Translations under genes and position numbers: made by a program | Notes under the pieces: generated by a model | Seen by the model: the letters and a program-made list of their open reading frames with translations, nothing else | Databases searched by the model: none | Told to the model about the DNA's origin: nothing | Source of the DNA: Sphingomonadales bacterium | Lineage (GTDB): Bacteria; Pseudomonadota; Alphaproteobacteria; Sphingomonadales; Sphingomonadaceae | Assembly: GCA_017309275.1 (NCBI GenBank) | Contig: JAFKLT010000062.1 | Span: forward strand, 1-61,564 | Length of the DNA stretch: 61,564 nt | Direction of reading: 5' to 3' | Shown: piece after piece, positions 21,921-44,865 of the stretch | Numbering within the stretch: position 1 is the stretch's first letter | How the letters are laid out: each line of letters starts with the position of its first letter

Positions 21921-22850
21921 TCAGCCGAAGGCGTTCTGAAAGAAGTAGCCGGCGTCGGCCGCGACGATGCGTTCGCGCAGGCTTTCGCCGGTTCGGCATG
22001 CGGTGCCGCCGCGCATGCCCATATTCTTGTCTTCCCACTGGGCGCCGATGCGGTCGCCGAATTCGAAGGAAGCCAGAAACTGCAGCGCGCCCTTGGCCTG
22101 GGGCACTTTCGCCTTGTGCGTCAGCGCCAGATGCTTGCCCCACAGGCGAGTCAGGGCCGGAGCCTGACCGCGCTTGACAGAGTTCGCGCGGGCGGCGCCG
22201 ACGAGGACCTCTTTGACCTCGAACAGATTGGCCACAGCTTCGCGCGAGACGATGCCCTTCTTGGCGGCCGTGCCGAGAACGGCTTCCACGATTTCGGGAT
22301 GGCTGCTGAAGCTCGTCCAACCTTCCTGACCAAACGTCATCTGGTTCGGCCTGACGAGCGGCATATCGAGCGCGGTGCGGATCTTCTTGATCGGCGAGCT
22401 GTTGACATAGTCGCTGAACTGCGACGTTCCCGCCAGCGTTTCGCGAAGACCCGGGTTGTAGGTCGCGTTGTTGAAGACGTAGCCTGCGACACGGCTTTCG
22501 CGATCGAGGGCGATCAGCTCCTGCAGGAACTCCACCTCGTCGCCCAGCGGATCGTAACGCTCGTCGGCGTTGTCCATGTCGGCCTTCGGCACACCGCCGT
22601 CGAGCGCGAAATCTTCCGTCGAGTCGGTGACCTCGCTCGCTTCCAGGTTGACCTCGTTCGGCTTCGAACGGCGGCCGACGCGGGTGTCGGGGATGTTGAA
22701 GAACTGGTCGGACGCATACTGCAGGAAGGTGAACTTCTGCTTTCCGACGCGCACGCGCGGCGCAACGTCGTCGGCAATATAGTCCTCGTTCTTGTAAGCG
22801 ATGGCGATCGCAGTCAGGTGCGGATCGATGGGGTAGGCGGACAGAGACAT
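21921..22850 (-). CDS. Major capsid protein
   Basis: A 309-residue protein starting MSLSAYPIDPHLTAIAIAYK, with the IADDVAPRVRVGKQKFTF region typical of major capsid proteins of B3/D3112-type transposable phages. It lies downstream of protease, scaffold and DUF2190-type decoration genes, the standard order of the Mu-like head module. The 58-bp gap upstream and a terminator downstream flank it as an individually controlled cistron, as expected for the most abundant virion protein. No cleavage site was identified. Confidence 0.88.
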   Translation of the reverse strand: MSLSAYPIDPHLTAIAIAYKNEDYIADDVAPRVRVGKQKFTFLQYASDQFFNIPDTRVGRRSKPNEVNLEASEVTDSTEDFALDGGVPKADMDNADERYDPLGDEVEFLQELIALDRESRVAGYVFNNATYNPGLRETLAGTSQFSDYVNSSPIKKIRTALDMPLVRPNQMTFGQEGWTSFSSHPEIVEAVLGTAAKKGIVSREAVANLFEVKEVLVGAARANSVKRGQAPALTRLWGKHLALTHKAKVPQAKGALQFLASFEFGDRIGAQWEDKNMGMRGGTACRTGESLRERIVAADAGYFFQNAFG

Positions 22851-22908: not shown

Positions 22909-23286
22909 TCAGCCCTGGATGCGGCCGGGCGACATGAGGCAGACGCCGACGTCGCCCAGGACGCCGGAGACCATTGCCTGCCCGATGATGCTGGCATTGA
23001 CGCCCGCACCCGGCGCCGCCGCGACAGCGCGGCCCACGCCATCGGACGTCAGGTAATCGCCGAACCCGACGACACCGCCATATTCGACCTCGGGAAGGCC
23101 GCCGAGATGGACGTCGCAAGGCTCGCCGATCGCCGCGTCGATCTCCGACGAGATACCGAAGACCTTGTCGGTCGACGCTGCGCCGACGATCACGCCAGCG
23201 GCCGCGCCGAATTTGACGATGCGGCGGCGCGGGACCGCAGCCTCGGCCTTGAAATTCTTGGTGAGAGTGGTGCTGAGGCCAGCCAT
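22909..23286 (-). CDS. Capsid decoration protein (DUF2190-like)
   Basis: A 125-residue beta-rich protein. The segment PRRRIVKFGAAAGVIVGAAS, followed by an IGEPCDVHLGGLPEVEYGG turn, matches the DUF2190 family of small head decoration proteins. It lies between scaffold and capsid genes. A hairpin (22885-22902) lies in the gap toward the capsid gene, without a U-tract. Confidence 0.78.
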   Translation of the reverse strand: MAGLSTTLTKNFKAEAAVPRRRIVKFGAAAGVIVGAASTDKVFGISSEIDAAIGEPCDVHLGGLPEVEYGGVVGFGDYLTSDGVGRAVAAAPGAGVNASIIGQAMVSGVLGDVGVCLMSPGRIQG

Positions 23287-23291
23287 AGTCG

Positions 23292-23777
23292 TTAAGCTCC
23301 CTTCTTGGCCTGGTTTTTGACGTGAGCGACGGCGCGGGCCATCGAGATCGGGCGGCCTGCCTTGGCTTGGCTCTCGGCGAAGGACGTGGCCGCCGCGGCG
23401 ATCGCGGCAGGGTCCTCTTCGCCGATCGCCTTGCCGTCATCCTTGGCGGACTCGCCCAGGCTGACGAGCGGATGCGCATCGTCGAACAGCTTGACCAGCG
23501 CGGCGCGCGGCGTCAGCTCGCCCGCCTCGCCAAAGCTGACCGTGTCGGTCGCGCCCAGGCCGTCCAGGACGCCGATCAGCAAATCCTTGCCCTTGGGGTG
23601 CAGCTTGGCCTTGGCGACCAACCCCTCGGCGAAGCTGACGTTTGCATCGTGCGCGACTTTGTCGGCCGCCTCGGCCGCCGCTTCTTCACGCGCCTTTACG
23701 GCGGCTTCGCGCTCCGCGACCTTGGTCTCGCGCTCGGCGAAGCTCGCCTCCTGTTCCTTGGGGTCGGTGCCCGACAT
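23292..23777 (-). CDS. Nested scaffold protein (Mu gpZ-like)
   Basis: An in-frame internal start (ATG 23777) gives a 161-residue coiled-coil protein (MSGTDPKEQEASFAERETKV start). A strong AGGAGA ribosome site lies 6-7 bp upstream of this ATG, much better than the site of the full-length gene. This matches the I/Z arrangement in Mu, where the C-terminal part is made separately as head scaffold. Confidence 0.75.
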   Translation of the reverse strand: MSGTDPKEQEASFAERETKVAEREAAVKAREEAAAEAADKVAHDANVSFAEGLVAKAKLHPKGKDLLIGVLDGLGATDTVSFGEAGELTPRAALVKLFDDAHPLVSLGESAKDDGKAIGEEDPAAIAAAATSFAESQAKAGRPISMARAVAHVKNQAKKGA

Positions 23778-24257
23778 GTCTGTCTCCTGCTCAAAAGTGA
23801 TGAAGGGGCCGGCGTCCGCTTCGCCCAGGCTGACCGTCCCCAGGTTCTTGACCGAGGGCGGATGCGCGCCGAGGAAGCCGACATGCCGGAGGTAATATTT
23901 GCCGGGGCGCGGGTTGTTCGCTCCCTTGGGTGAATAGAAGGATGCGGAAATCTTCCGATATCGACCGGCGTTGACCATCTCGGCGAACGCCGGCTCGGTC
24001 AGTGCGGGGTCGGGATAGGCGAAGACCTCGCCGTCGACGACTGCCAGCCGGTCGACCCAGCCATAGGCCGGATGATCCAGCTTCGGATGACCGACGACCA
24101 GCGGCGCCGGATCGGCGGCGCCGTCATAGCTCGATACGATGTCGGCCAGCTCGCCCTCGCCGAACGTCAGCTCCTCGCCTTCGACGGACGTGAAGGTGCC
24201 TTTCCGGAAAATCCGGATCGGCTTCAGATCGTTATCGGTGGCGGCGGCGTTCGTCAT
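23292..24257 (-). CDS. Mu gpI-like head maturation protease with fused scaffold
   Basis: A 321-residue protein. The first ~155 residues are the phage protease I domain (IRIFRKGTFTSVEGEELTF, PLVVGHPKLDHPAYGWVDRL, YRKISASFYSPKG, YLRHVGFLGAHPPSVKNLG). The rest is a Glu/Ala/Lys-rich coiled coil that forms a scaffold region, with a nested start at 23777. In Mu, I is cleaved and Z, made from an internal start, is the scaffold. This is the first gene of the leftward late operon. Confidence 0.87.
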   Translation of the reverse strand: MTNAAATDNDLKPIRIFRKGTFTSVEGEELTFGEGELADIVSSYDGAADPAPLVVGHPKLDHPAYGWVDRLAVVDGEVFAYPDPALTEPAFAEMVNAGRYRKISASFYSPKGANNPRPGKYYLRHVGFLGAHPPSVKNLGTVSLGEADAGPFITFEQETDMSGTDPKEQEASFAERETKVAEREAAVKAREEAAAEAADKVAHDANVSFAEGLVAKAKLHPKGKDLLIGVLDGLGATDTVSFGEAGELTPRAALVKLFDDAHPLVSLGESAKDDGKAIGEEDPAAIAAAATSFAESQAKAGRPISMARAVAHVKNQAKKGA

Positions 24258-26385: not shown

Positions 26386-26637
26386 ATGCATCCCGAGGAC
26401 ATCAAGGCAGCAATCCGCAAAAAGGGCACAACCCTCGCGGAACTGGCGGCCAATGCCGAGGTTTCGAAGCAAGCTATTAGCGCGGCGCTTGACCGGCGTT
26501 CGTCGGAGCGCATCGATCAACTGATCGCTGATTTTATCGGTTTGAAACCGCATCAAATCTGGCCCTCCAGGTACAACAACAAAGGTAAGCGCATTCGCTA
26601 TCGGGCGACGCCTGCAGCCTCGCAGGTGCCCGCATGA
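26386..26637 (+). CDS. ner: Ner-like transcriptional regulator
   Basis: An 83-residue protein (ATG 26386; an in-frame GTG at 26374 would add four residues). The sequence MHPEDIKAAIRKKGTTLAEL followed by SKQAISAALD and the C-terminal IWPSRY is a close match to the Mu Ner/Nlp family, including the conserved IWPSRY ending. Ner is a Cro-like protein that turns down early and repressor transcription. It overlaps the transposase start by 4 bp. Confidence 0.9.
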   Translation: MHPEDIKAAIRKKGTTLAELAANAEVSKQAISAALDRRSSERIDQLIADFIGLKPHQIWPSRYNNKGKRIRYRATPAASQVPA

Positions 26638-28502
26638 GCAGCGCCTATCACAACGAGCGGGTCGCGCCAACGTCCCCTATACGTTCTCATAACGGTTCGT
26701 CTCAAAACGACGCAATCGCCGCTAATCTGCCTGGCTTCGCGTCGGCCCAGGAGCTGGCCGATGCAGCGCTGCCGGGCCTTCCGACGACCCACAGCGCAAT
26801 GCTTCGCCGCGCAGCGCGCGACGGCTGGGCCTTCATCGACCGCATCGTCGGACGCGGCGGCGGTCGGCTGTACCGGGTTACCGATCTTCCCGCCGATGCC
26901 CAGGCCGCGCTGCGCGAGCGGCGCCTGGACCAGGTCGGCGCCGCACCGGTGGGGCGACCCAAGGGTTCCGACTTCTTCACGCTCAACCCCGACGTCGCCG
27001 CCGTCGTCGAAATGTACATAACGCAGCGCAACCTGTCGGCGCCCGCCGTACTGAAGCTGCTGCGGCAGGATTTCTTGCACCTTCCGTCGAAACGGTCGCT
27101 GCAGCGGTTCATTGCGCGCCTGGAGGACGAACGTAAGGTCGTCATCGCGTCGATCCGTGACCCCGATGCCTACAAGGGCAAGTATCGCCTGGCCCTGGGC
27201 CGCGCCGATGGTAACACCGACCGCGCGCATCAGATTTGGGAAATCGACACCACCCCGGCCGACGTGATGACGACCGACGGGCGCAAGGCGGTACTGGGCC
27301 TGATCGACCGCTGGTCGCGCCGCGTGCTGTTCATGGTGTGCGAGTCTGAAAGCGCGCAGTCGGTCCGCCGCCTGCTGATCACGGCCATCACCAAATGGGG
27401 CGTGATGCCCGAGACGGTTATGACCGACCAGGGTTCGGGCTTCATCAACGGGTCGATCGTTTCGGCGCTCGATTTGCTCGACATCGACCATTGGCCGTGC
27501 CCGCCCGGATCGCCGGAGAAAAAGCCGCACGTCGAACGGGCCTTCGGCACGATGACCCGTGACCTATTCGAGCTGCTCGACGGCTTCATCGGCCATAACG
27601 TCGCCCAGGCCCAGAAGCTGCGCGCCCGCGCGCGCAAGCAAACGGGCCGCGCGCTGATCGAGGCCAGCATGTCGGCGGCCGAGCTGCAGGGTGCGCTCGA
27701 TGCCTGGGCCGACGGCGACTATCATCTGCGCAACCATAGCGAGCTGCGCATGTCGCCGATGCGCAAATGGAAATCCTCGCCTGTCCCGGCACGCGCCGCG
27801 CCGTCGGCTGACCTCCTCCGCATGGCGCTCTCCGCGCTTGTCGGGCCGCGCACCGTCGGCAAGCGCGGACTCCAGTGGGAGGGTGGCCGTTATTGGGCAA
27901 CCGGCCTAGTCGGCTGGGTCGGGCGCCGCGTCATGGTTCGCCGCGTCGAGGATGAGCTGGGCGAGTTGCTCGTCTTCTCGCCCGAAGGGCAGTTCATCGA
28001 CGTCGCGGTCAATCATGAACGCCGCGGCCTGTCGCAGGCCGAGTTCGCGACCGAAGCGCGCGCACAGCAGGCCAAGTGGGTCCGCGATCAGCGCGCCGAT
28101 CTCCGCGAGCGGACAAAGGGCTACACCTTCGAAAAGGCGCGGGACAGCCTGCTGCGCCGCACGGCGGAGGAGGCTGGGAAGCTCGTCCACCTTCCCCCGC
28201 CGACACAGCCGCATTCCACTCCCGCGATGGACACGATGCGCGAGGGCGCCGGATCACCGATCCCCCAGCCCGAGACGCGCAGCCCGTCGGTCAGCGCCCA
28301 GATTGTCACCATGACCAAGTCGCCCGCGCAAAAAGTGCGCGAGGCCGACGCAATCATCTTTGCCGCGGATGCTGGCCAGGACGTCGACCCCGACGCGCTG
28401 CGCCGCGCCCGCAACTACGCGACCAGCAGTGAATACCGCGCGCACCGCGCGATCGCGGAAACGCTCGGCGCGGCATCCCAGCAATCCACATCGGCATCCT
28501 AG
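26634..28502 (+). CDS. MuA-like DDE transposase
   Basis: A 622-residue transposase. The N-terminal ~100 residues form a Mu-type HTH DNA-binding region (DGWAFIDRIVGRGGGRLYRV). The rve catalytic core holds the DDE triad: Asp205 (WEIDTTPADV), Asp265 (MTDQGSGF) and Glu301 (PHVERAFG), spaced 60 and 36 residues. A Mu-transposase C-terminal beta-barrel follows, then a basic helical tail that would bind MuB. It performs strand transfer at TG...CA ends, matching those found at 3990 and 46025. It is slightly shorter than Mu A (663 residues). It is internal, 22.6 kb from the left end, whereas in Mu it lies near the left end. Confidence 0.95.
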   Translation: MSSAYHNERVAPTSPIRSHNGSSQNDAIAANLPGFASAQELADAALPGLPTTHSAMLRRAARDGWAFIDRIVGRGGGRLYRVTDLPADAQAALRERRLDQVGAAPVGRPKGSDFFTLNPDVAAVVEMYITQRNLSAPAVLKLLRQDFLHLPSKRSLQRFIARLEDERKVVIASIRDPDAYKGKYRLALGRADGNTDRAHQIWEIDTTPADVMTTDGRKAVLGLIDRWSRRVLFMVCESESAQSVRRLLITAITKWGVMPETVMTDQGSGFINGSIVSALDLLDIDHWPCPPGSPEKKPHVERAFGTMTRDLFELLDGFIGHNVAQAQKLRARARKQTGRALIEASMSAAELQGALDAWADGDYHLRNHSELRMSPMRKWKSSPVPARAAPSADLLRMALSALVGPRTVGKRGLQWEGGRYWATGLVGWVGRRVMVRRVEDELGELLVFSPEGQFIDVAVNHERRGLSQAEFATEARAQQAKWVRDQRADLRERTKGYTFEKARDSLLRRTAEEAGKLVHLPPPTQPHSTPAMDTMREGAGSPIPQPETRSPSVSAQIVTMTKSPAQKVREADAIIFAADAGQDVDPDALRRARNYATSSEYRAHRAIAETLGAASQQSTSAS

Positions 28503-28515
28503 AAGGAGAAGAGCC

Positions 28516-30304: not shown

Positions 30305-30306
30305 CC

Positions 30307-30931: not shown

Positions 30932-30941
30932 AAGGACCACT

Positions 30942-34324: not shown

Positions 34325-35361
34325 GCGGTGACAAGCGCCATGCCCCGACCGGCCACTCGCTGTTCGATCACCCCTGCCACGGCCTCTTCACCGGCCAAAT
34401 CGTAGGCGAGCTTTCGCATCGCGCATACATTGGCGACGGGCCGATTTATTGCGAGCGCTGCGGCACCGAGCTGGACAAGAACAAGAACCGGAAAAAGGGC
34501 GCCCCGCTGCATTGGGAACCCCGCACCGACAACAGCGTGCGGCGCAACTTCGAGTTTCAACCCCAGGTCCAGCCCTGGCTGCTCGCATGCTTCGGCCCGG
34601 AGATCGCGGGCGATCGCGAAGAGCGCAATCATCGGTTTCTCGAAGAGGCGCTCGAACTGGTCCAGGCGTGCGGCTGCTCCGCGTCGGAGGCGCATCAGCT
34701 CGTCGACTATGTCTTTGGCCGCCCGATCGGCGAGCCGCGACAGGAGGCGGGCGGCGTGATGGTGACGCTCGCGGCGCTGTGCCTGGCCAACGCCCTCGAC
34801 ATGCACAAGGCCGGCTGGGACGAGCTGCAGCGCATCTGGACCAAGGTCGAACAGATACGCGCGAAACAGGCCGCCAAACCTAAGCATGGCCCGCTGCCGG
34901 AGGTACGGCGGGAGGCCGACGAAGCCGCTCGGGCGCAAACGATGGAGCGGCTGCGCATCCTGGCCAAGCAACGAACGTCAAGCGAGATGGACGAGGATGA
35001 ACGGGAGGGGGCCGACTGGCACGGCGCCTACGACTGGTTCTGCCACGAAAGCCGCGCCATTTTTGCCGCTCTATCCGCCGCGCCCGCCGACGATGCGGGG
35101 CAATATCTCGTTTGGTCGAATGAGCATCGCGGATGGTGGGGTCCCGATCGGCGAGGATATACGCAGTTTGCCGAGCGCGCCGGGCGATACGGACGGGACG
35201 AAGCCTTGCGCATTGCCGGCGTCGCCCGCGGTGGATGGATGACGGGCAAGAACCCCAGCGAAATTGCCATTCCCGAGGCCGACGCTTTGCCGCAGTCGCT
35301 CCACCCTGATCGCCTTGAAGCGTGGCTCAATCGCCGCCCGGGTTCCGACGATGGCGTGTGA
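34321..35361 (+). CDS. Phage protein with NTP-pyrophosphatase-like domain
   Basis: A 346-residue protein. A short CERCGTE motif lies near residue 45. Residues ~85-175 resemble an all-alpha (MazG/dUTPase-like) NTP pyrophosphatase: NHRFLEEALELVQAC with the EExxE metal motif, then EAGGVMVTLAALCLANALDM. The C-terminal ~80 residues form a WWGPDRRGYTQ module seen in other phage proteins. It may clean nucleotide pools or degrade alarmones. The start ATG 34321 overlaps the gemA stop. Confidence 0.68.
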   Translation: MSGDKRHAPTGHSLFDHPCHGLFTGQIVGELSHRAYIGDGPIYCERCGTELDKNKNRKKGAPLHWEPRTDNSVRRNFEFQPQVQPWLLACFGPEIAGDREERNHRFLEEALELVQACGCSASEAHQLVDYVFGRPIGEPRQEAGGVMVTLAALCLANALDMHKAGWDELQRIWTKVEQIRAKQAAKPKHGPLPEVRREADEAARAQTMERLRILAKQRTSSEMDEDEREGADWHGAYDWFCHESRAIFAALSAAPADDAGQYLVWSNEHRGWWGPDRRGYTQFAERAGRYGRDEALRIAGVARGGWMTGKNPSEIAIPEADALPQSLHPDRLEAWLNRRPGSDDGV

Positions 35362-35629
35362 ACACGTGACCCTTCCAGACGGCGCTCGCGCCATTGTCTG
35401 CGGCCTGCCGCGATCGCGCGCGAAATGTCGTTGCGGCAGGACGGCGACGCTGCTCTGCGACTGGAAGCTCCCTGGCGCCATCGAGCCTAGCCTGGTCAAG
35501 GTAACGGGCACCTGTGACGCGCCGCTCTGCCCGAAGTGCACCCATTCCCCCGCGCCGGAAAAGGACCTCTGCCCTAAGCACGCCGCCGAATGGCTGGAAA
35601 TGCGTGAGCGGCGGAGGGAGGGCCGATGA
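35351..35629 (+). CDS. Cys-rich zinc-binding phage protein
   Basis: A 92-residue protein with at least seven cysteines: CRCGRTATLLC and CDAPLCPKCTHSP, then DLCPKHAAEW. This looks like one or two zinc ribbons. It starts 11 bp before the upstream stop and overlaps the Mor-like gene by 4 bp. Confidence 0.62.
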   Translation: MACEHVTLPDGARAIVCGLPRSRAKCRCGRTATLLCDWKLPGAIEPSLVKVTGTCDAPLCPKCTHSPAPEKDLCPKHAAEWLEMRERRREGR

Positions 35630-36126
35630 AGCTCGACCGCCCCGTCTCCCTGTCCGACTTGCCGATCCCCGCGAATTCGGTGGTGACCGGCAAATGGACC
35701 GCGCAGATGTGCGAGATGGCCGATCACCTTGGCCCGTTCCGGACCTTGCTCGTCATCGACGCGCTGGGCGGACAACAGATCGACGTGCCGAAAAGCGCCG
35801 AGCGCAACCGCATGGCGGCGATCATCGGCGAGGAAGGCGCGAAGATCATGTCGCGCATCTATGGCGGGAACCGGATGAAAGTGCCCGTCGGTCGCCCGGC
35901 GCTGAACGAAGCGCGCCGCGCGGGCGTGATCGCTGCGATCCGCGACGGTAAGATGTCGATCGGCGAGGCTGTCCCGATCCTGGGGACCTCGCACAACTAC
36001 ATCAGCCACCTTGTGAACAAGACGGACGAAGGCAAGGAAACCCGAGCCCTCGACCTCTCGAAGCTCGCGCGGCGGCGCTACGACCCTCGCCAGCTCGACA
36101 TGTTCGCGGCGCCCGAGTCCGAATGA
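35626..36126 (+). CDS. Mor-like late/middle transcription activator
   Basis: A 166-residue protein. The C-terminal half resembles Mor/C of Mu: a GEEGAKIMSRIYGGNRMKVP strand-loop region, then NEARRAGVIAAIRDG and MSIGEAVPILGTSHNYISHL as the HTH. It is the penultimate gene before the terminator and the packaging operon, which matches Mor just before Pm. It could activate both divergent late operons, which share an upstream motif. Confidence 0.72.
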   Translation: MKLDRPVSLSDLPIPANSVVTGKWTAQMCEMADHLGPFRTLLVIDALGGQQIDVPKSAERNRMAAIIGEEGAKIMSRIYGGNRMKVPVGRPALNEARRAGVIAAIRDGKMSIGEAVPILGTSHNYISHLVNKTDEGKETRALDLSKLARRRYDPRQLDMFAAPESE

Positions 36127-36470
36127 AGCCCAGCGCCGAAACCGTCGCGCTCGCGCGCTCGATGCAGGACGCGGCCGATCAGCCGGACGCGATTGTCGGC
36201 AAGCAACTGGCGCGCCGGCTGTGGGCCGCGCTCACCGCACGGCACGGTGATATCCTGCGCGATTTCCTCAATCATGACGCGATGGAAATCGTTGATCCGA
36301 CCTATCGGGCGGCCGCCACGCTGTTCGCCCGCGCCCGTATCTACGTCGAACCGTGCCCGCGCTTGATCACCGACCAGCCTATCGTCTATCTCGCCGTCTG
36401 GCCCGACGGGCAGCGCCGCAACCTCACCGAGGCCGAGCTGCTGCAGCTCGCGGGCATCGCCCCCGACTGA
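36123..36470 (+). CDS. Phage protein at end of middle operon
   Basis: A 115-residue mostly helical protein with a Cys-Pro turn (VEPCPRLITDQPIVYLAVWP). It overlaps the Mor-like gene by 4 bp; its stop is directly followed by two hairpins. No recognised family. Confidence 0.58.
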   Translation: MKPSAETVALARSMQDAADQPDAIVGKQLARRLWAALTARHGDILRDFLNHDAMEIVDPTYRAAATLFARARIYVEPCPRLITDQPIVYLAVWPDGQRRNLTEAELLQLAGIAPD

Positions 36471-36503
36471 CCCCGCCCGCTGGCGGGTGGGGCCGACCCA
36501 GCT

Positions 36504-36523
36504 AACCCCCTGACATTGTGACC
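36504..36523 (+). promoter_or_regulatory. Candidate late-activator site upstream of packaging operon
   Basis: Positions 36505-36514 read ACCCCCTGAC, identical to ten bases upstream of the leftward late operon (24465-24456, minus strand). Both continue with a similar AT(T/C)GTG string. The distance to a start just after the terminator T-tract is about 40-50 bp, suitable for a Mor/C-type activator. Confidence 0.45.
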
Positions 36524-36529
36524 CCGCGC

Positions 36530-36555
36530 GCGGCGCCTTCCAGGCGCCGCTCTTT
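36530..36555 (+). terminator. Intrinsic terminator of the early/middle operon
   Basis: An 8-bp stem GCGGCGCC (36530-36537) with GGCGCCGC (36543-36550), loop TTCCA, followed by TCTTT. A second GC hairpin directly follows the stop codon at 36470. The pair separates middle from packaging transcription. Confidence 0.75.
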
Positions 36556-36575
36556 GCATCTGCATTGGGGTTTTC

Positions 36576-36935
36576 ATGGGTGATTTTCTGACCAAGCTCA
36601 TGGTCTTTTGGCCGCTCGCGGTTTTTGCGATGCCCGTTTTGCTGGCCGTCGGCCTCCTCTGGCTCCGCACCAAGTTCCCGGAACTGGCCGCGTTCAACAA
36701 GGCGGTCAACGATATCGGTGAACTAAAATCCAAGGTCGGCATCTTCGAAGTGGAGCTGAAAGAGCTTCGCAACGATATCGAGAGCGAGCCGACCCGCGCC
36801 CAACTGAATGCCCAGCTATCGGATGCGATAGCGCGTCTTAGCCGCGTCGAAGGCGGCATCGAGGGGGTCGGGCGGCAGATACATACCCAAAGCCAGTGGA
36901 TACAGGCACTTGCCCTTCCGCAGGGCGGGCGCTGA
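36576..36935 (+). CDS. DUF2730-like membrane coiled-coil protein (Mu gp25-like)
   Basis: A 119-residue protein with one N-terminal transmembrane helix (residues ~9-30, MVFWPLAVFAMPVLLAVGLL) and a long coiled coil (residues ~45-105). This layout and the position at the head of the packaging operon match DUF2730/gp25. Role unknown; perhaps linked to lysis timing or DNA handling at the membrane. Confidence 0.78.
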   Translation: MGDFLTKLMVFWPLAVFAMPVLLAVGLLWLRTKFPELAAFNKAVNDIGELKSKVGIFEVELKELRNDIESEPTRAQLNAQLSDAIARLSRVEGGIEGVGRQIHTQSQWIQALALPQGGR

Positions 36936-37225
36936 TGCTGCACGACAAAATCCGCCCGGTCATCCGCCGCGCCATTCTGGACGTCGTCCTGGACGTCGGC
37001 GGCGAGGTCAATGACGAGGACGTGACGATCCTGCTCAACGAGTTGGGACACCGCGTCGGCGGCCCCGACATCGTCGAAGAATTCAAGTGGCTCGGCGCCC
37101 AGGGCCTGCTCAAGCTCCAGGAATATCCCGCCTACGTCGTCGTCTCGTCGACCAAGGCCGGACGTGCCGTTGCCGCGGGCACGATGCGTTACGACGGGGT
37201 CTATCAGCACAAGACGGGGGAGTGA
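36935..37225 (+). CDS. Small phage protein (Mu gp26/ArpA-like position)
   Basis: A 96-residue winged-helix-like protein: MLHDKIRPVIRRAILDVVLD, then HRVGGPDIVEEFKWLGAQGL and a beta hairpin. It starts in a TGATG overlap with the upstream gene. Equivalent small proteins lie between gp25 and gp27 in other Mu-like phages. Confidence 0.65.
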   Translation: MLHDKIRPVIRRAILDVVLDVGGEVNDEDVTILLNELGHRVGGPDIVEEFKWLGAQGLLKLQEYPAYVVVSSTKAGRAVAAGTMRYDGVYQHKTGE

Positions 37226-37226
37226 C

Positions 37227-37760
37227 ATGGCTCCCCGCTCGTCGATCGAGAAAAACCCCGCGCTTCAGGCCGCCGTCGAAAAGCTGATCGCCGAGGGCGA
37301 GCATACGATCGACGATATCCACGATGCCGTCGCCGAATATGGCGTCTCGCGCTCGGCCGTTGGCCGCTACGCCAATCGCTATCGTCCGATGGTCGAAACC
37401 ATCATCCGCGACCGCGCCGTCCGGCAGGCGATGCACAAGCATTTGCCGGAGGGCGTCGACACCGGCCTCGTCGATATCGCGATCCACCGCGCCCAGTCCG
37501 AAGTGCTGCGCGCGATGGACGCGATGGGCGAAGAGGACGAGGCCGCCAGCCCCGATCGCATCGCCAAACTGGTCCGCTCGCTGAATGGCGTGATCAAAGC
37601 CATGCGCGACAAGCGCGCATACGCCGACGAAATCCGTGCCAGCGAGCGCAACCGTGCTGCCGATGCGGCTGCCGCCGCCGCGAAGGAAGCCGGCGTCGGC
37701 GATGCGCAGATCGATGTCATTCGCCGTCAAATCCTTGGCCTGAAGGAAAAGGCGAAGTGA
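37227..37760 (+). CDS. DUF3486 small terminase-like protein (Mu gp27-like)
   Basis: A 177-residue helical protein beginning MAPRSSIEKNPALQAAVEKL. Residues ~25-55 form an HTH (TIDDIHDAVAEYGVSRSAVG). The rest is long coiled coil rich in Ala, Arg and Glu. DUF3486 proteins lie directly upstream of the gp28 large terminase and are thought to be its small subunit. It overlaps the following gene by 4 bp. Confidence 0.83.
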   Translation: MAPRSSIEKNPALQAAVEKLIAEGEHTIDDIHDAVAEYGVSRSAVGRYANRYRPMVETIIRDRAVRQAMHKHLPEGVDTGLVDIAIHRAQSEVLRAMDAMGEEDEAASPDRIAKLVRSLNGVIKAMRDKRAYADEIRASERNRAADAAAAAAKEAGVGDAQIDVIRRQILGLKEKAK

Positions 37761-38194
37761 AGCCGGTGCCGGGAGAGCCGCGGCCGCTGCTCCGTGTCGT
37801 CGGGGAACGCCCCGCCGACGGCGACGAGACCGCGCCCGTTCCGGTCAAGCTGGCCGGCGCGATCCGCGACTATGCGATTTCGCGCGGCCTGACGATCGGA
37901 AAGCTGGAGCGCAGCCGCGCCCGCTTTTCCGCCAGCCTCTATCTCACCATGTCCGATGCGACCGGTCGCATCTGGACGATGCGGATTTCGAACCATCTGC
38001 GTCCCCGGGTGACGGGCTATGCGTTGCCCAACATCGACCTGGTCACCTTCGACGGCGTCTCCGGCAAGCGCGCCGGGCGCGAGCTGATCGACCGCATCAT
38101 CACTGGCAACGTCGTTTGGTTCGATGCCAGCAAGACGGCCCGCTGCCTGCCCCACACGCGCCGACGGAAGGGAATGCGCCAATGTCGCCGTTGA
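37757..38194 (+). CDS. Phage protein between terminase subunits
   Basis: A 145-residue protein. The central part (LTIGKLERSRARFSASLYLT, then TGRIWTMRISNHLRP) is beta-rich with basic residues, and the C-terminal end is very basic. A DNA-interacting packaging accessory is possible. No family recognised. Its end overlaps the terminase start. Confidence 0.6.
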   Translation: MKPVPGEPRPLLRVVGERPADGDETAPVPVKLAGAIRDYAISRGLTIGKLERSRARFSASLYLTMSDATGRIWTMRISNHLRPRVTGYALPNIDLVTFDGVSGKRAGRELIDRIITGNVVWFDASKTARCLPHTRRRKGMRQCRR

Positions 38195-39861
38195 TGTCCG
38201 GACAGGAGTCGGCGGCGCCGACAGTTCTGCTGCCCTATCAGCAGGAAAGCATTGAGCTTGCCGAGGAACACCAGCTCCTGGTCGTCGAGAAATCGCGCCG
38301 CATCGGCCTGTCATATGCGTTCGCGCCGTTCGCCGATCTAGCTGCCGCTGCCGGCGAGGGCGCCCAGAACGTCTATTACGTCGGCTACAACCTCGACATG
38401 GCGCGCGAGTTCATCGGCTACTGCGCCGATTTCGCCAAGGCCTTCGAAGGTGTCCGCGTGTCGCTTCCGGAGAGCAACACCGGCCTCGTCGTTCGGCGTG
38501 AGGATGGCAGCCATCTCGATGTCGCTGGGCGCGTGCTGCTCGACGTCGACGAAGGTGACTACCGCGGCGTGGTCCAGGAGGAAGAGGGCGGCTTCCTGAT
38601 CCGGGGCGATGCCGGCAAGTCAGTGAAGGCCTTCCGCATCGATTTCCCGTCCGGCAAGGCTGTCGTCGCACTTCCGTCAAGCCCGCGATCGGTGCGCGGT
38701 AAACAGGGCATATTCATCATTGATGAAGCGGCCTTTCACGACAATCTGGAAGAGCTGATCAAGGCGATCCTGGCGGCGTTGATGTGGGGCGGCCGCGTCA
38801 TCGTGATCTCCACCCACGATGGCACCGACAATTTCTTCAATACGATGATCGAGGAAATCCGCGCCGGCAAGCGCGCGGGCCATGTTCACCGCATCACGCT
38901 CAAGGATGCGATCGCGGCGGGCCTCTACAAGCGCATCTGCCTCGTCCAGGGCAAGGAATGGTCGCTGGAGGCCGAACAGGCCTGGGAAGCGAGTATTCGC
39001 AAGACCTACGGCGATGCCGCCAGCGAGGAACTGGACGTCATCCCCTCGCGCGGCACCGGCACCTATCTCGCGCGCGCCACAATCCTGGAGGCGATGTCGA
39101 AGGACTTGCCCGTCGTCCGCCTTCGCTGCCCCGACGGCTTCGAGCGCTGGGACGACGATCGCCGCCGCGCCTGGTTGCTCGATTTCCTTGAGGACGAGGT
39201 AAAGCCCTGGCTCGCCAATTTCGATCCGACGCGCCGGACCTTCATGGGACAGGATTTCGCGCGCAGCGGCGACGTATCGCCGGTGAAGTTCGGGCAGTAC
39301 GACGAATTTATGCGGCTCGTCTGCCGCCTGACGCTCGAAATGCGCAACGTGCCCTTCTCCGACCAGGAATTCATCCTGGACTGGCTGATCGCGCGCGTGC
39401 CCCATTTTGCGCGCGGCAAGATGGACGGGCGCGGCAACGGCTCTGCGATGGCGGAAAAGATGCAGCAGCGCTGGGGTTTCGACGTGATCGAGGCCGTAAT
39501 GGCGTCCGACCGGACCTATCTTCAGTACATGCCGCTGCTCAAGGCGGCCGTCGAGGATCGCATGATCCTCCTCCCGTTCGACGAGGGCGAGCTGGACGAC
39601 TTGCGGATGATCAAGATGGTCCGCGGCGTCCCCAAAATCCCCGACGGGCCGCAGCGCAGCAGGGAAGATGGCAAGACCGTCCGGCGCCACGGCGACAACG
39701 CGATCGCCGACATGCACCTCGTTGCCGCCGCGAACGAGGACCCCGGCGACATCGAATTCCTCAGCTCGGGCAACCGCTCCAGCACGGCGGGCGACTTTGA
39801 ATTCACCTCGCGCGGCTTCGGCACCGTCGCGCGCAAATCCGATGGAGGTTTCGGGCTATGA
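38182..39861 (+). CDS. Large terminase subunit (Mu gp28-like)
   Basis: A 559-residue packaging motor. The ATP-binding segment VVEKSRRIGLS at 34-44 is the modified Walker A typical of gp28 terminases. Walker B with catalytic Glu is GIFIIDEAAF (Asp180-Glu181). The nuclease part follows, with GQDFARSGDVSP as the first acidic strand and HGDNAIADMHLVAAA near the C-terminus. I chose ATG 38182 behind GGAAGGGAA. It packages by the headful mode in Mu, starting from the left end, with host DNA attached. Confidence 0.93.
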   Translation: MSPLMSGQESAAPTVLLPYQQESIELAEEHQLLVVEKSRRIGLSYAFAPFADLAAAAGEGAQNVYYVGYNLDMAREFIGYCADFAKAFEGVRVSLPESNTGLVVRREDGSHLDVAGRVLLDVDEGDYRGVVQEEEGGFLIRGDAGKSVKAFRIDFPSGKAVVALPSSPRSVRGKQGIFIIDEAAFHDNLEELIKAILAALMWGGRVIVISTHDGTDNFFNTMIEEIRAGKRAGHVHRITLKDAIAAGLYKRICLVQGKEWSLEAEQAWEASIRKTYGDAASEELDVIPSRGTGTYLARATILEAMSKDLPVVRLRCPDGFERWDDDRRRAWLLDFLEDEVKPWLANFDPTRRTFMGQDFARSGDVSPVKFGQYDEFMRLVCRLTLEMRNVPFSDQEFILDWLIARVPHFARGKMDGRGNGSAMAEKMQQRWGFDVIEAVMASDRTYLQYMPLLKAAVEDRMILLPFDEGELDDLRMIKMVRGVPKIPDGPQRSREDGKTVRRHGDNAIADMHLVAAANEDPGDIEFLSSGNRSSTAGDFEFTSRGFGTVARKSDGGFGL

Positions 39862-41894
39862 CCGCGCCTAAGGGCGAGCGCGCACGCGCCGCCAAGACGA
39901 AGCTGCCCCCCGAACTGGCGGGCGAGATCGCGACGACGGCCGACGGCCGCGACATTACCCAGCCGTTCATCACCGGCCTGCGCGAACCGAAGGACCCGCG
40001 CCTTGCCGGCTCGGTTGACTGGGGCATCTATGATCGCATCCTGCTCGACGACCAGGTATTCTCGACCCTGCAGCAGCGCCGCGGCGCCGTCGTCGCGCGG
40101 ACCTGGGACGTCGTTGCCGGCGACGAAACCGATCCGCGCTCGGTTGCGGCGGCCGAGGCCTTCAGCAACACGATCGACCGCATCGGCTGGGACCGGATTA
40201 CCGGCAAGATGCTGTTTGCTGTGTTCTATGGCTTCGCCGTCGCCGAGATCATGTGGGAAGTCCGCGACGGGCTGATCGACATCGCCCAGATCAAGGTCCG
40301 GCATGCCCGCCGCTTCCGCTATGACGTCCAGGGTCACCTCCGCCTGCTGACCTCGGTCGGCGGCCTCGGGGAAATCCTGCACAACCGCAAATTCTGGTCC
40401 TTCCGCGTCGGCGGGACCAACGATGACGAACCCTATGGCCGCGGCCTGGCCGAATGGCTCTATTGGCCCACGCTGTTCAAGCGCAACGGCATCCGCTTCT
40501 GGAATATCTTCCTCGACAAGTTCGGATCGCCGACCGCCGTCGGCAAATATCGCCCCGGCACGCCCAAATCGGACCAGGAGAAGCTGCTGGAGGCGCTCCA
40601 GGCCCTTTCAACCGACAGCGGCATCACGATCCCCGAGGGAATGGTCGTTGAGCTGCTGGAGGCCGCGCGATCGGGCACCGCCGATTATGGCACGATGGTC
40701 CGCTACATGGACGGCGCGATCGCGAAGATCATCCTGTCGCAGACCATGACGACGGACAATGGATCGAGCCGTAGCCAGGCCGAGGTCCATAGCGACGTAA
40801 AGCTGGAGGTTGTGAAATCGGACGCCGATCTGTTGTCCGACAGCTTCGCCGAGGTCGCGCGCTGGTGGACCGATCTGAATTTTGGCACCGACGTCGCCGC
40901 GCCGCGCGTCATGCGCCAGGTCGCCGAAGAAGAGGACGTCAAGGAAATCGCCGAAACCGACGAGGCGCTCGACCGTCTCGGCTGGGAGCGCACCGACGAG
41001 AGCTTCAGCGACACCTACGGCGAGGGCTATCGGCGCAAGCCGAAGGCCGAAGGTCCGACGCCTGCCGATGGCGACGACGTCGACGTGGACAATCCCGATG
41101 ACGACGGCGCCAACGACAACGAAGTCCTCGACCCGAACGTCAACGACACGAATGCCAGCTTCGCGGCCGACGATCCGCGTCCGCTCTACGTCTATCGCCC
41201 GCTGCTGCCCGAAAGCGCGGCCGAGCTGCTCGCCTGGGCGGTCCAGGAGGGCTTCACCGCCTTGCGCCCTGCCGCCAGCCTTCATGCGACGATCGCCTAT
41301 TCCAAGCGCCCGGTGAACTGGATGAAGATGGGCGGTTTCTGGGGGTGGGGTCCCGACACCAGCGACCATATGGTCCCGATCGGCGGGCCACGCATCGTCG
41401 ACCGGATCGGCGACGAAGGCGTCGTCGCTCTCCATTTCTTCTCCGGCCATCTTGAACAGCGGAACCGCGAGATGCGTGATCGCGGCGCGAGCTGGGATTT
41501 CCCGGACTATTTTCCGCATATCACCTTTGCCGACGATGCCGGCGACGTCGACCTGACGAAAGTGAAGCCGTTCCGCGGCGAGCTGCGCTTCGGTGCCGAG
41601 GTATTCGAGCAGCTCGACGATGATTGGCAGCCCGATGATGACGACGCCAGCTTCGCCGAAGGTCCCGCCGACAGCGCCACCGACCAGCTCGTCGACAAGC
41701 TGATCGCCGAGGATGGCTATCGCGCCGTCCGCGCCCTGACCGAGCCGATGCTCAGCGCGATCCGCGCCGCGCGATCGCCCGGGGACCTCCTCGCCGCGAT
41801 CGGCATCGCCCCCGGCAACCCGGCGCCGATCGCCGCCGACCTCGAAGCTGCCGGCCTCGCGGCCGCGCTCGATGCCGAAAGCCCCGACGCCTGA
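39858..41894 (+). CDS. Portal protein (DUF935, Mu gp29-like) fused to 2H phosphoesterase-like domain
   Basis: A 678-residue protein. Residues ~1-400 are the DUF935 portal: SVDWGIYDRILLDDQVFSTL, then GRGLAEWLYWPTLFKRNGIR and FLDKFGSPTAVGKYRPG. After an acidic linker (~405-445), residues ~445-590 carry the two motifs of a 2H phosphoesterase: His476-x-Thr478 in LHATIAYSK and His554-x-Thr556 in YFPHITFAD, 78 residues apart. The final ~90 residues are helical. Mu gp29 has 512 residues and no such domain, as far as I know. The domain resembles anti-CBASS Acb1, which cleaves cyclic nucleotide signals with paired HxT motifs. In a portal it would be carried in every virion. Start overlaps the terminase stop by 4 bp. 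Confidence 0.85.
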   Translation: MTAPKGERARAAKTKLPPELAGEIATTADGRDITQPFITGLREPKDPRLAGSVDWGIYDRILLDDQVFSTLQQRRGAVVARTWDVVAGDETDPRSVAAAEAFSNTIDRIGWDRITGKMLFAVFYGFAVAEIMWEVRDGLIDIAQIKVRHARRFRYDVQGHLRLLTSVGGLGEILHNRKFWSFRVGGTNDDEPYGRGLAEWLYWPTLFKRNGIRFWNIFLDKFGSPTAVGKYRPGTPKSDQEKLLEALQALSTDSGITIPEGMVVELLEAARSGTADYGTMVRYMDGAIAKIILSQTMTTDNGSSRSQAEVHSDVKLEVVKSDADLLSDSFAEVARWWTDLNFGTDVAAPRVMRQVAEEEDVKEIAETDEALDRLGWERTDESFSDTYGEGYRRKPKAEGPTPADGDDVDVDNPDDDGANDNEVLDPNVNDTNASFAADDPRPLYVYRPLLPESAAELLAWAVQEGFTALRPAASLHATIAYSKRPVNWMKMGGFWGWGPDTSDHMVPIGGPRIVDRIGDEGVVALHFFSGHLEQRNREMRDRGASWDFPDYFPHITFADDAGDVDLTKVKPFRGELRFGAEVFEQLDDDWQPDDDDASFAEGPADSATDQLVDKLIAEDGYRAVRALTEPMLSAIRAARSPGDLLAAIGIAPGNPAPIAADLEAAGLAAALDAESPDA

Positions 41895-41924
41895 CGAATC
41901 CACCCGAAGAAAGGAGTTACGACC

Positions 41925-42338
41925 ATGACGCCGCAACAGAAGATCAAGCACCTGATCCTCATCCGACACGCCGAATGGAACGACGATCCCGATGCCGTCG
42001 AATTCACCCGCGCCCTCGACGCGACCGGTATCGACGATCAGTACGCAGCGCTTGAAGAAGCTGGAGATATCTGGGACGCCGTAAGCGAAATCCGCGGAGG
42101 TGAAGTCCCATCCAACCTCAAATGCGATTGGTCGCGCCACTATGAAAGCCAGGCGGTCGCCGCCCGGTACATCGACGGCTCATGGGTCGGCTGGACCTAC
42201 TGGTTCGGCGGCGGCAAGCACGGCGAACCCGAGACGATCGACTGGATACCCGACGCCTACGCCCTCGATGTGACCGAGGAAGAAAAGGTCGTCACCGTCC
42301 GGACCTTCGCGAAGGCCGATCAGGCGGGAAACGCCTAA
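41925..42338 (+). CDS. Phage protein inserted between portal and gp30 genes
   Basis: A 137-residue acidic protein (LILIRHAEWNDDPDAVEFTR; WVGWTYWFGGGKHGEPETID). It begins 30 bp after the portal with an AAGGAG site. The first of six small genes that interrupt the portal-gp30 pair. Function unknown. Confidence 0.6.
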   Translation: MTPQQKIKHLILIRHAEWNDDPDAVEFTRALDATGIDDQYAALEEAGDIWDAVSEIRGGEVPSNLKCDWSRHYESQAVAARYIDGSWVGWTYWFGGGKHGEPETIDWIPDAYALDVTEEEKVVTVRTFAKADQAGNA

Positions 42339-42598
42339 TGGCATATGGCGATCTACCGCTCGATGCGCCCCACAAGCCCAATAAGGGGCACGAAGGCGGA
42401 GCGTGCAACCGTCAGTCGTGCCAGGCTGAGCCTGCGCTATGGTGGAACCACGGCAGCCATAGCTGGTATTGCGGCGATTGTGCCCGCGACATCGGCAGCG
42501 ATGTCGTGAACAAGCGTCATTGGGACCTCCGCTGGCTTCCGGAGTGCGGGCATCCGCAATTCGAAACGCGCGAGATGATGAACGCGAGGGCGAAATGA
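42338..42598 (+). CDS. Small zinc-binding phage protein
   Basis: An 86-residue protein with potential zinc ligands: Cys-x4-Cys (CNRQSC), Cys-x2-Cys (YCGDCAR) and a further CGHPQ. Its ATG shares a base with the upstream stop (TAATG). Function unknown. Confidence 0.6.
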   Translation: MAYGDLPLDAPHKPNKGHEGGACNRQSCQAEPALWWNHGSHSWYCGDCARDIGSDVVNKRHWDLRWLPECGHPQFETREMMNARAK

Positions 42599-42870
42599 CC
42601 GACGGCCAGCTCACCCCCGAGGAAGTCCGCACGATGAGCGCTCTCGCCGAGGCGCTTGTCCAGGAGGTCGAGCCTGCGGGGCGGCAGCTCGGTCTCGACG
42701 GCATCACCACGGCGCTGGCACTCAGCTTCGCCGCGACGAAGCTGCTCTATCGCATCTCGGCCAACCCCGAACTGGCGCTTAAGGCGGTCAACATCATGAA
42801 CGTCAGCGCCCTGCAGTCGATGGCCGACATGATCGCGGGCGCCGATGCGCCGAACCAACGGAGGCAATGA
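42595..42870 (+). CDS. Small helical phage protein
   Basis: A 91-residue all-helical protein with AEALVQEVEPAGRQLGLDGI and SFAATKLLYRISANPELA segments. It overlaps both neighbours (ATGA at 42595, TGATG at 42868). Function unknown. Confidence 0.57.
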   Translation: MTDGQLTPEEVRTMSALAEALVQEVEPAGRQLGLDGITTALALSFAATKLLYRISANPELALKAVNIMNVSALQSMADMIAGADAPNQRRQ

Positions 42871-42989
42871 TGGACGACGACGACGATGGCCTGATCTACT
42901 GCGAAAACTGCAGTGGGCGGTTTCTGCCGGATGATATGGACGGCGAGCATTGCCTCGAATGCGCCTGGGAGCTGTTCGGCAATGACTGA
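42870..42989 (+). CDS. Tiny zinc-ribbon phage protein
   Basis: A 39-residue protein beginning MDDDDDGLIY with CENC and CLEC spaced 17 residues, a compact zinc ribbon. The ATG overlaps the upstream stop (TGATGG) behind GGAGGC. The following gene starts inside its last codons. Confidence 0.6.
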   Translation: MDDDDDGLIYCENCSGRFLPDDMDGEHCLECAWELFGND

Positions 42990-43239
42990 TCCCAGCAACA
43001 GCGGCACGACGTTCAGACCCACCGACGACGAAATCTTCGCGGCGGTCGGATCAGGCAAGCGCATCCACCAGATTTGTCGGGAGATCGGCGGCGCGGTCGG
43101 GGCGGAGAGAGCCCGCATCACCCGCCGATTGAAGGTTCTGGAACGGGCGGGACGCGTGACCCGCTGTCCCCGCCACTCGGCGGACAACAGCTATTTTTGG
43201 CATCAGGCAGACGGCGAATGTCGCGGCTGCCGACTTTAA
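42982..43239 (+). CDS. Small winged-helix-like phage protein
   Basis: An 85-residue protein with a DNA-binding pattern: FRPTDDEIFAAVGSGKRIHQ, then ARITRRLKVLERAGRVTR. It ends with CRGCRL. It may regulate late expression. Overlaps the zinc-ribbon gene by 8 bp. Confidence 0.62.
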   Translation: MTDPSNSGTTFRPTDDEIFAAVGSGKRIHQICREIGGAVGAERARITRRLKVLERAGRVTRCPRHSADNSYFWHQADGECRGCRL

Positions 43240-43256
43240 GGGGAGCACATTAAATC

Positions 43257-43490
43257 ATGAGTGTAAGCGACGAGCAGCTACGCCTCTTCATCGAACGTAT
43301 CGAGCGCCTCGAAGAGGAAAAGAAGGGCATCGGTGACGACGTCAACGATGTCTACTCCGAAGCTAAATCGCAGGGTTACGACCCTAAGATCATGCGCCAG
43401 ATCGTCCGGCTGCGGAAAATGCCGGTCCATGACCGCAAGGAAATGGAAGCGATCCTCGACGTCTATAAATCGGCGCTGGGTATCGCATGA
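43257..43490 (+). CDS. GapR-like (DUF2312) DNA-binding protein
   Basis: A 77-residue protein very similar to the alphaproteobacterial nucleoid protein Gap[21 protein letters not shown], then [20 protein letters not shown] and [20 protein letters not shown]. GapR is a helical dimer or tetramer that clamps overtwisted DNA and stimulates type II topoisomerases. The phage copy lies between packaging genes with its own AGGGGAG site and overlaps gp30 by 4 bp. Confidence 0.9.
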
Positions 43491-44701
43491 CCGCGCGCCC
43501 GGCCCTTGGCGACACCATGTATATGGAACCAGGCGACATCATTGCCGCCTGGGCCGAGCGGTCGGGCTATCGCCTCTCGACGCACTGGACCGACACCTGG
43601 CTTGGCGAGCATGCCTCGGGCTTCACGGTCGCCAAGGTCGCAAAGCTCGATCTGCTCGTCGCCATTCGCAAATCGCTCGACGACGTGATCCGCAATGGCG
43701 GGACGTTCGAACAGTGGCAGGCGAACCTGATCCCGGAACTGAAGAAGCACGGCTGGTGGGGCGTGGTCCAGGACGAGGCGCTCACCGGGACGGCCGATCC
43801 CGTCATCGTCAATGAACGCCGGCTGCAGACGATCTACCGGACCAATGTCCGGATGAGCATCGCGGCGGGCCGCTGGCGCAAATATCAGCGCGAAAAGGAC
43901 CTGTTCCCCTATCTGCGCTACCTGTCGGACCACTACCGCAAGCATCCGCGCCTCAACCACCTCGAATGGCACGGCATCATCCTCCATGTCGACGATCCGG
44001 CCTGGCAGTGGATGTTTCCGCCCAATGGCTGGGGCTGCAATTGCCGCGTCGAACAGGTCAGCGAGGCGCGGATGCGCCGCATGGGCTGGAAGGTCGACGA
44101 AGCGCCGAACCCGCCCCGCCACGACTTCGTCACCGCCGCGGGCGAAGTCGTTTCCGTGCCCCAGGGCGTGGCGCCCGGCTTCAACTACAATCCCGGCACC
44201 GCGCATCTGCGCGTGCTGGCCGATCGGACCGCGGCGTCGCTCGGTTCCGCCGTCGACGCCGGCCTCGGCGACGTCGCGCGCCAGACGCTGCGCGACCTCG
44301 TCGCCGATCCGGCGTTCGATCAGTTCCTTGCGCTGCCCGATCCGCAATTCCCGGTCGCGATCCTCGACGACCGCATGGCCGGCGCGATCGATGCCAGGAA
44401 CCGCATCGCCGTCCTGCCCCAGGCGACGCTGGAGCATGCGCGCGATCGCGCCATCCTCGCGCCGTCGGTCCTACGCCAGTTGCCCAAGCTGGGCGACGAC
44501 CCCCAGGTTGTCGCGCGCGTTGGCGACAGCATCGTCGTCTTCACCCGCACCGACAGCGGCGAGTGGCTCGGCGCGATCGTCGCCCGCACCGGGAACGGCG
44601 AAGGCGTCATCATCGAGCATATCGAGACAGGCGAGGACAGCACGCTCTGGCAGCTCCTCGACCCCGACTTCGCCTCGGAGATCATCCTTGACCGGCGCTG
44701 A
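43487..44701 (+). CDS. Minor head protein (Mu gp30/MuF-like)
   Basis: A 404-residue protein of the MuF/SPP1 gp7 head-morphogenesis family. The core is [38 protein letters not shown] and [16 protein letters not shown], with conserved His and Cys residues typical of the family. The C-terminal ~130 residues form a separate domain ([20 protein letters not shown], then [20 protein letters not shown]) that could be a small barrel or nuclease-like fold carried in the virion. It is the last gene of the packaging operon. Confidence 0.88.
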
Positions 44702-44865
44702 CGGCGCCGCCCACGAATTCCCGCCGACCGAGGCGGGGGAAAGGGCGTTGCAGCGCCCTTTAACCGACGGCAGACACCCGTCATGGCCCAACCGGTCTAG
44801 CCCACGGATACCAGTGGCTCGACCATCCCGCCTGTCCGACCGGACGCGCGAACGATTAGGGAACA
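44702..44865 (+). terminator. Gene-free gap with terminator hairpin before the methylase
   Basis: An 8-bp stem AAAGGGCG (44740-44747) pairs with CGCCCTTT (44754-44761) around TTGCAG. It follows the packaging operon. The rest of the gap has no convincing gene; a promoter for the methylase should lie in 44762-44865 but no strong match is seen. Confidence 0.55.

Follow-up and report, generated by a model that had tools for sequence, protein, structure and literature searches.

An Acb1 domain bracketed by a duplicated motif in the portal protein of a Mu-like prophage

Portal-linked 2H phosphoesterase domains have been proposed as injected immune antagonists, yet a portal-bound domain should not enter the cell. 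The portal ring should remain with the particle, and a domain tethered to it would have no way into the next cell. How, then, could a phage use an enzyme that is built into its portal? The question is raised by one gene in a contig of a Sphingomonadales bacterium (JAFKLT010000062.1, assembly GCA_017309275.1), which was analysed over its whole length of 61,564 nucleotides (the window). The gene belongs to a Mu-like prophage and encodes a Mu-type (DUF935) portal protein with an Acb1 domain inside it. What is new here is a duplicated SFA[A/E] motif, with one copy on each side of this Acb1 domain. The flanking motifs resemble protease sites and suggest a release route for the domain. The best explanation of the whole, to which we assign a probability of about 55%, is a cargo cassette that would be excised by the prohead protease and act as a free enzyme against the cyclic-oligonucleotide-based antiphage signaling system (CBASS).

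An Acb1 domain inside a Mu-type portal protein

The gene and its parts are as follows.

39858..41894, plus strand: portal-Acb1 fusion gene, 678 amino acids (aa), 74.6 kDa
40026..41021, plus strand: Mu-type (DUF935) portal core, residues 57-388 (Portal_Mu, PF06074)
41022..41156, plus strand: linker, residues 389-433, mostly predicted disorder (predicted local distance difference test, pLDDT, <50 over residues 399-438)
41157..41168, plus strand: SFAA, residues 434-437, first copy of the motif, bordering Acb1 on its N-terminal side; predicted prohead-protease site
41181..41633, plus strand: Acb1 (2H phosphoesterase) domain, residues 442-592 (PF23474)
41283..41291, plus strand: first HxT motif, H476-A-T478
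41517..41525, plus strand: second HxT motif, H554-I-T556
41649..41660, plus strand: SFAE, residues 598-601, second copy of the motif, bordering Acb1 on its C-terminal side; aligned with the motif of Acb1-less portals
41661..41891, plus strand: helical portal C-tail, residues 602-678, common to close Acb1-less DUF935 portals

The reading frame and the two HxT motifs, 78 residues apart, lie where a first reading made from the letters alone (the sequence-only reading) had put them. Its central claim, an Acb1-like 2H domain inside a DUF935 portal, is borne out by two Pfam matches that are both far above cut-off, one to Portal_Mu (E 5.1e-99, 332 bits) and one to Acb1 (E 3.9e-31, 108.2 bits against a cut-off of 27). 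That reading had also spoken of an extra C-terminal region. The Acb1 domain is indeed there, but not at the very C-terminus, as the frame continues for 86 residues past the Pfam match. Sequence matches of the fusion protein in the Protein Data Bank (PDB) were the Pam3 portal (8hds, E 2.6e-21) and Acb1 (7t26, E 1.1e-5). PHROGs returned portal families together with phrog_755, labelled RNA ligase like T4 57B, and neither NCBIfam nor PADLOC gave a match for the window portal. The position of the gene is that of a Mu-type portal, after TerL and before MuF, with some small open reading frames (ORFs) between portal and MuF.

Structure prediction, which the sequence-only reading had proposed as a check, gave the domain a 2H fold (mean pLDDT 88) with both HxT motifs within it, and its best structural match in the PDB is Acb1. 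In an alignment with T4 Acb1, residues Y12, H44, T46, F107, H113, and T115 correspond to Y444, H476, T478, F548, H554, and T556 of the window, and E141 and W147, counted in the PDB sequence-match alignment, correspond to E584 and W590. Could the domain be a 2H phosphoesterase with a different substrate, for example the 2',3'-cyclic phosphate ends of RNA or ADP-ribose cyclic phosphate, and with no role against CBASS? 2H enzymes are varied in their substrates, and LigT, RNA-end phosphodiesterases, and cyclic-phosphate phosphodiesterases also match the predicted fold. T4 Acb1 residue W74 has no aromatic counterpart in the aligned window domain, which likewise speaks for another substrate and counts against a role in CBASS. 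This alternative appears distinctly unlikely, and action on CBASS signals is judged likely.

Conservation bears on whether the domain works at all. Among 125 distinct Acb1-domain proteins of all types, the first H of the tetrad is kept in 124, the first T and the second H in all 125, and the second T in 110, with S in the other 15. The ratio of nonsynonymous to synonymous substitution rates in the domain was 0.02-0.33 in seven of nine pairs, those yielding a value, indicating purifying selection. A dead domain that is purely a structural appendage of the portal would fit the existence of close relatives without it (L204 and L211), but is hardly credible when the catalytic residues are kept over the 125 proteins and the domain is under purifying selection.

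A motif at both borders of the domain

An alignment of portals showed one FAE-like motif before the helical tail in several Acb1-less portals and two FAE-like copies in the fused ones, one at each Acb1 border. In a 41-row alignment, F599, A600, and E601 are almost invariant amid a variable region. The motif was counted in two sets of portals. The fused set holds 31 complete, distinct proteins (from 27 virus contigs, the window, and L042, L043, and L045), and the Acb1-less set holds 53; before repeats and cut ends were dropped, there were 146 portal ORFs of both kinds. At the N border, FA[AE] is present in 29 of the 31 fused portals against 0.36 expected from shuffled proteins, the exceptions being SLAA in L045 and SFGV in L224. 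At the C border it is present in 22 of 31, against 1.08 expected, and the other nine have LAE. Both shuffle expectations disregard shared ancestry, and it tells against our explanation that the portals are related and not independent trials. When the set was thinned to <80% identity, FA[AE] remained in 17/19 at the N border and 17/19 at the C border; at <70% identity it remained in 11/13 at each border, and [FL]A[AE] in 13/13 at the C border.

Portals without Acb1 carry FA[AE] in the tail in 42 of 53 cases (32 once and 10 more than once), and in 39 of 53 it lies 80-95 residues before the end. The difference between the two kinds can be seen in a near-isogenic pair of an empty (L211) and a filled portal (L209), which are identical at 364 of 392 core positions and 70 of 84 tail positions and differ by the Acb1 cassette plus one motif copy. 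In the structure model of the window protein, both motifs lie in low-confidence, predicted disordered linkers between ordered parts.

What does the motif do? It recurs in the head protease gene of the same prophage.

23292..24257, minus strand: head maturation protease with a scaffold-like C half (phrog_976, E 2.3e-76)
23733..23744, minus strand: SFAE in protease/scaffold, residues 172-175
23625..23636, minus strand: SFAE in protease/scaffold, residues 208-211
23373..23384, minus strand: SFAE in protease/scaffold, residues 292-295

This ORF holds three SFAE and one AFAE, and its C half is read as scaffold by analogy with the annotation of Mu and B3. In 46 protease/scaffold C-halves, FA[AE] occurs 135 times where 20.3 would be expected, whereas portal cores show no enrichment (17 against 18.7). 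Furthermore, the residue before FA matches in portal/scaffold pairs of the same phage above permuted pairs (29 distinct pairs, 2 of 5000 permutations; Acb1-less only, 20 pairs, 65 of 5000), figures that disregard ancestry. In distant phages compared by eye, AALSA occurs in both the portal and the protease/scaffold of Mu, EFAE in both of B3, and FAA in both of a Leptolyngbya phage, while in JBD30 the portal motif is AALA and the protease motif is AALT.

Further evidence comes from the Mu portal gp29. Its last 124 residues are missing from the virion structure, and cleavage of the C-terminus by protease I has been suggested (PMC11915804; papers given by PMC number are cited here for the parts available). 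The aligned parts of the solved portal chains end at 388-398 of 512 residues in Mu and at 408 of 526 in JBD30, and the portal motifs lie downstream of those ends, at residue 427 in Mu and about 433 in JBD30. T4-type proteases cleave after Glu behind a short motif (PMC9026906). Two things make the motif a candidate protease site: it recurs in the protease/scaffold ORF, and in Mu this protease may cut the C-terminus of the portal. As judged from these comparisons, the duplicated site suggests that the Acb1 domain is cut loose during assembly, and it seems fairly probable that the domain is freed by cutting during head maturation.

An alternative is that SFA[AE] is a docking motif that binds portal, protease, and scaffold together in prohead nucleation and is not a cut site. 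Several repeats in the scaffold part and the presence of the motif amid otherwise variable portal linkers would suit docking, and a shared motif alone cannot separate binding from cutting. Against docking stands the probable loss of the C-terminus from the Mu portal (PMC11915804, in the part available), and docking is considered unlikely.

How the domain might be released and where it might act

In the proposed excision model, an Acb1 cassette would have been inserted in a Mu-type portal at the head-maturation protease site, which would have left a copy of the site on either side of the enzyme. By analogy with Mu, the portal ring would bring twelve copies of the enzyme into the prohead. Cuts by the prohead protease (23292-24257, minus strand) at SFAA 434-437 and SFAE 598-601 would then remove the helical tail and free an Acb1 protein of ~163 residues and ~18.5 kDa, similar in size to the free Acb1 of T4 (152 aa). 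Once free, the enzyme would hydrolyse the cyclic di- and trinucleotides with which CBASS signals alarm. It would do so in the producing cell in late assembly or, if it is retained in the head and exits together with the DNA, in the next cell. We infer from the comparisons that the motif is a cut site, that the domain is excised and released, by what route it might be ejected, and what its substrate is. The duplicated protease-like site would provide a concrete release step that yields one 18.5-kDa fragment with two predicted ends. An internal start giving free Acb1 was also considered and is not favoured: the only candidates among residues 395-470 are a GTG at 410, with no clear ribosome site by eye, and a TTG at 469, which lies inside the domain.

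Action in the producing cell is consistent with the behaviour of the JBD30 scaffold, which is reported to be cut and to leave the procapsid, probably by pores (PMC11445458), and with a CBASS sensor that was shown to interact with a prohead protease (PMC12409349), each as given in the available part of the source. The sensor interaction would also suit an enzyme that is never released. In that case, Acb1 would stay tethered and degrade CBASS signals late in the producing cell, on free portal subunits or rings, and the motifs would be incidental or only the ancestral tail site would be cut. Late expression with the head genes would be enough if head assembly triggers CBASS, and late co-expression without a tether exists in Edwardsiella phage ZHS, whose unfused Acb1 gene is close to its portal gene. 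However, the motif is duplicated at both domain borders in nearly all 31 portals, the C-tail is not seen in the Mu virion portal (PMC11915804, in the part available), and the compared chains of JBD30 and Mu stop before the motif. A tethered enzyme is judged unlikely.

Action of an excised enzyme in the next cell finds parallels in the T4 internal proteins, the P1 Dar proteins, and the Acb1 of a Vibrio phage virion, as far as the available parts of the sources go (PMC9026906, PMC12810830, PMC12028318). Action in the virion-delivered phase is what the sequence-only reading had suggested. In its fullest form, the excision model makes the portal a cargo loader: the twelve Acb1 copies of each prohead would be cut free on both sides, retained in the head, and ejected along with the DNA, which would disarm CBASS in the next cell ahead of any phage gene expression. 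This form is tentative, and the odds are against it.

Several observations, along with the shared ancestry and W74 mentioned above, weigh against excision of an anti-CBASS cargo. FA[AE] is lacking from the tail of 11 of the 53 Acb1-less portals, and in three others it is confined to the last 20 residues. FAA predominates in copy 1 and FAE in copy 2, and the two may be cut unequally. Of the nine portals whose C border has LAE, eight form one subgroup; in the five of this subgroup with a paired protease the scaffold has mainly FAE, with VSLAE in one only, so that portal and scaffold do not match strictly. In the commoner kind of fusion, that with PF06381 portals, none of the 14 linkers read contains FA[AE]. 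The portal channel of JBD30 is 21-30 Å wide (PMC11445458, in the part available), which is tight for a folded 18.5-kDa protein. Finally, the host genome has no SMODS-family CD-NTase (cGAS/DncV-like nucleotidyltransferase) above cut-off; its two weak SMODS matches below cut-off were read as other nucleotidyltransferases, and 13 of 196 genomes of the order have SMODS above cut-off. If the excision model is true, head maturation would be linked to counter-defence, and the portal would offer a slot where an enzyme is carried and freed.

Genomic setting, distribution, and known systems

The element is a Mu-like prophage, and the other genes that place it are these.

26634..28502, plus strand: Mu-type transposase, which marks the Mu-like prophage (PF00665, PF09299, PF02316)
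38116..39861, plus strand: terminase large subunit (phrog_2, E 3.7e-27)
43487..44701, plus strand: MuF-like minor head protein (PF04233; phrog_220, E 1.8e-76)
22909..23286, minus strand: head scaffolding-type protein by PHROGs (phrog_673, E 2.6e-22)
21921..22850, minus strand: major head protein (phrog_1005, E 5.4e-79)

The plus strand between 26 and 45 kb carries transposase, AAA ATPase, GemA, gp27, terminase, portal, and MuF, and the minus strand between 10 and 24 kb carries the major head protein, scaffold-type protein, protease, and tail genes. The layout is split, with head, protease, and tail genes (10000-24300, minus strand) to the left of the transposase and terminase, portal, and MuF to the right (within 26600-45700, plus strand). 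Protease (L172) and portal (L018) are likewise on opposite strands in contig IMGVR_UViG_3300038555_000008. A D12-class adenine DNA methyltransferase gene (44866-45720, plus strand) adjoins the MuF gene.

How widespread is the fusion? In a first scan, a DUF935 portal and Acb1 shared one ORF in 25 of 25 virus contigs. Wider scans covered 42 genome loci and the best 80 of 305 virus loci, which together with phage records and genome searches made 163 loci with 160 Acb1-domain ORFs. A DUF935 portal accompanies 58 of these ORFs (repeats of the same contigs included), and 92 best match one of five PF06381-portal references (L003 and cut-end rows included). Nine have no portal part in front, comprising T4-like and other free genes, L134, which is cut by a contig end, and L152 and L162, which are fused to other domains. 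The remaining one (L011, 973-3240, minus strand, in a genome of the same class) has a portal of a third family, PF04860. Named relatives with the DUF935 fusion are four sphingomonads and one Thermomonas metagenome-assembled genome (L042-L046). Among 352 matching annotated phage records, no place covered at least 80% of the window portal.

The 15 DUF935 rows group as a single clade (94/76) in a tree built from 68 domains, and the adjoining PF06381 fusions also stand on one side of a branch (69/77). An origin of the DUF935-portal Acb1 nested within the PF06381 ones was set aside, as the tree puts each on one side of a branch. A single spread into DUF935 portals is the simplest reading of these sequences, with moderate support. 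The window and L198 are 89% identical in the portal core and 74% in Acb1, and the window and L201 are 73% identical in the core and 83% in Acb1. This mosaic pattern suggests cassette exchange. L355 was not counted as an independent case, its portal being 100% identical to that of L199 over 680 aa.

Free Acb1 genes occur in Edwardsiella phage ZHS (L009, 2116-2715), between the terminase and portal genes, and in Roseobacter phage DSS3P8 (L008), and both are annotated as prohead protease. Synechococcus phage Yong-M3-232 (L003) was rejected as a natural case of unfused Acb1. Here, a repeat spaced by 127 bases (1466-1721) splits a PF06381 portal/Acb1 frame into two genes, and the end of the portal and the start of the next ORF repeat 43 residues, of which 42 are identical. 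It is probably a fusion that was split recently or by assembly error, and LFAE stands directly before its Acb1. Other Acb1 combinations include a PF06381 portal with Acb1 and then an ADP-ribosyltransferase domain in one 966-aa frame (L150, 2100-5000), a 792-aa protein of PF06381 portal, Acb1, and a C-terminal BECR-type nuclease domain, PBECR3 (L129, 1848-4226), and Acb1 preceding an XkdF-like phage protease domain (L152, 859-1950) or an ART-PolyVal domain (L162, 3266-4660).

DUF935 portals were also surveyed for other cargo in two overlapping samples, one with 385 genomes from the class and one with 398 from the phylum, and part of the frames was read. Six phylum frames of >700 aa without internal stop comprise five portal-MuF fusions, read by sequence, and one N-terminal extension. 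The long-tailed class frames L377 and L379 have no recognisable domain. No other enzyme cargo was found in the portal slot among the frames read, and L385 (695 aa, weak match) is outside those. DUF935-type portal-MuF fusions are present at L416, L417, L418, L420, and L421; in L420 and L421, the junction of portal and MuF carries one more motif, FAD or FAA.

The literature searched, as far as its texts were available, contains no description of a DUF935-Acb1 fusion or of a protease bracket. A 2022 survey in Viruses noted some 2H domains fused to MuF or portal and suggested packaging and injection against nucleotide signalling (PMC9503650, in the part available). Thus, the fusion principle and its supposed purpose are already in print, in agreement with the sequence-only reading, which had mentioned Acb1-like domains noted in the annotation of other portal families; the PF06381 portals of the scans agree with it too. 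The general idea of that survey is the one followed here, but its available part describes no DUF935 case, cut-site bracket, or release step. The PF06381 (DUF1073) fusions of phiPSA1, Rhizobium phages, and the cyanophage Pam3 portal have a related Acb1 behind the portal core, but the portal family is another one and Acb1 is mostly at the very end. The sequence of the Pam3 portal 8hds contains Acb1, yet 8hds does not appear in the lists of structural matches of the domain and of the whole model, which run to at most 50 structures, and the domain may not be modelled in it.

Acb1 of T4 and FBB1 (PF23474) shares with the window domain the 2H fold, the HxT/HxT tetrad, and equivalents of Y12, F107, E141, and W147. 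However, T4 Acb1 is a free protein, whereas the window domain sits in a portal and does not keep W74. Mu gp29 is of the same portal family, with AALSA common to portal and protease/scaffold, and its C-tail is thought to be removed by protease I, according to the part of the source available. The window portal also has a tail and motif, but gp29 has no Acb1 and only one motif copy. T4 IPI and P1 DarA are counter-defence proteins that are packaged in the head, undergo trimming by the prohead protease, and are ejected along with the DNA (PMC9026906, PMC12810830, in the parts available). The window domain has the motif of its protease/scaffold on both sides and may be trimmed likewise. T4 IPI and P1 DarA are not portal fusions and target restriction instead of cyclic nucleotides. 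Vibrio phage 6E351A comes close in another respect, as its Acb1 was detected in viral particles; the available part of that report mentions no packaging route and no portal fusion (PMC12028318).

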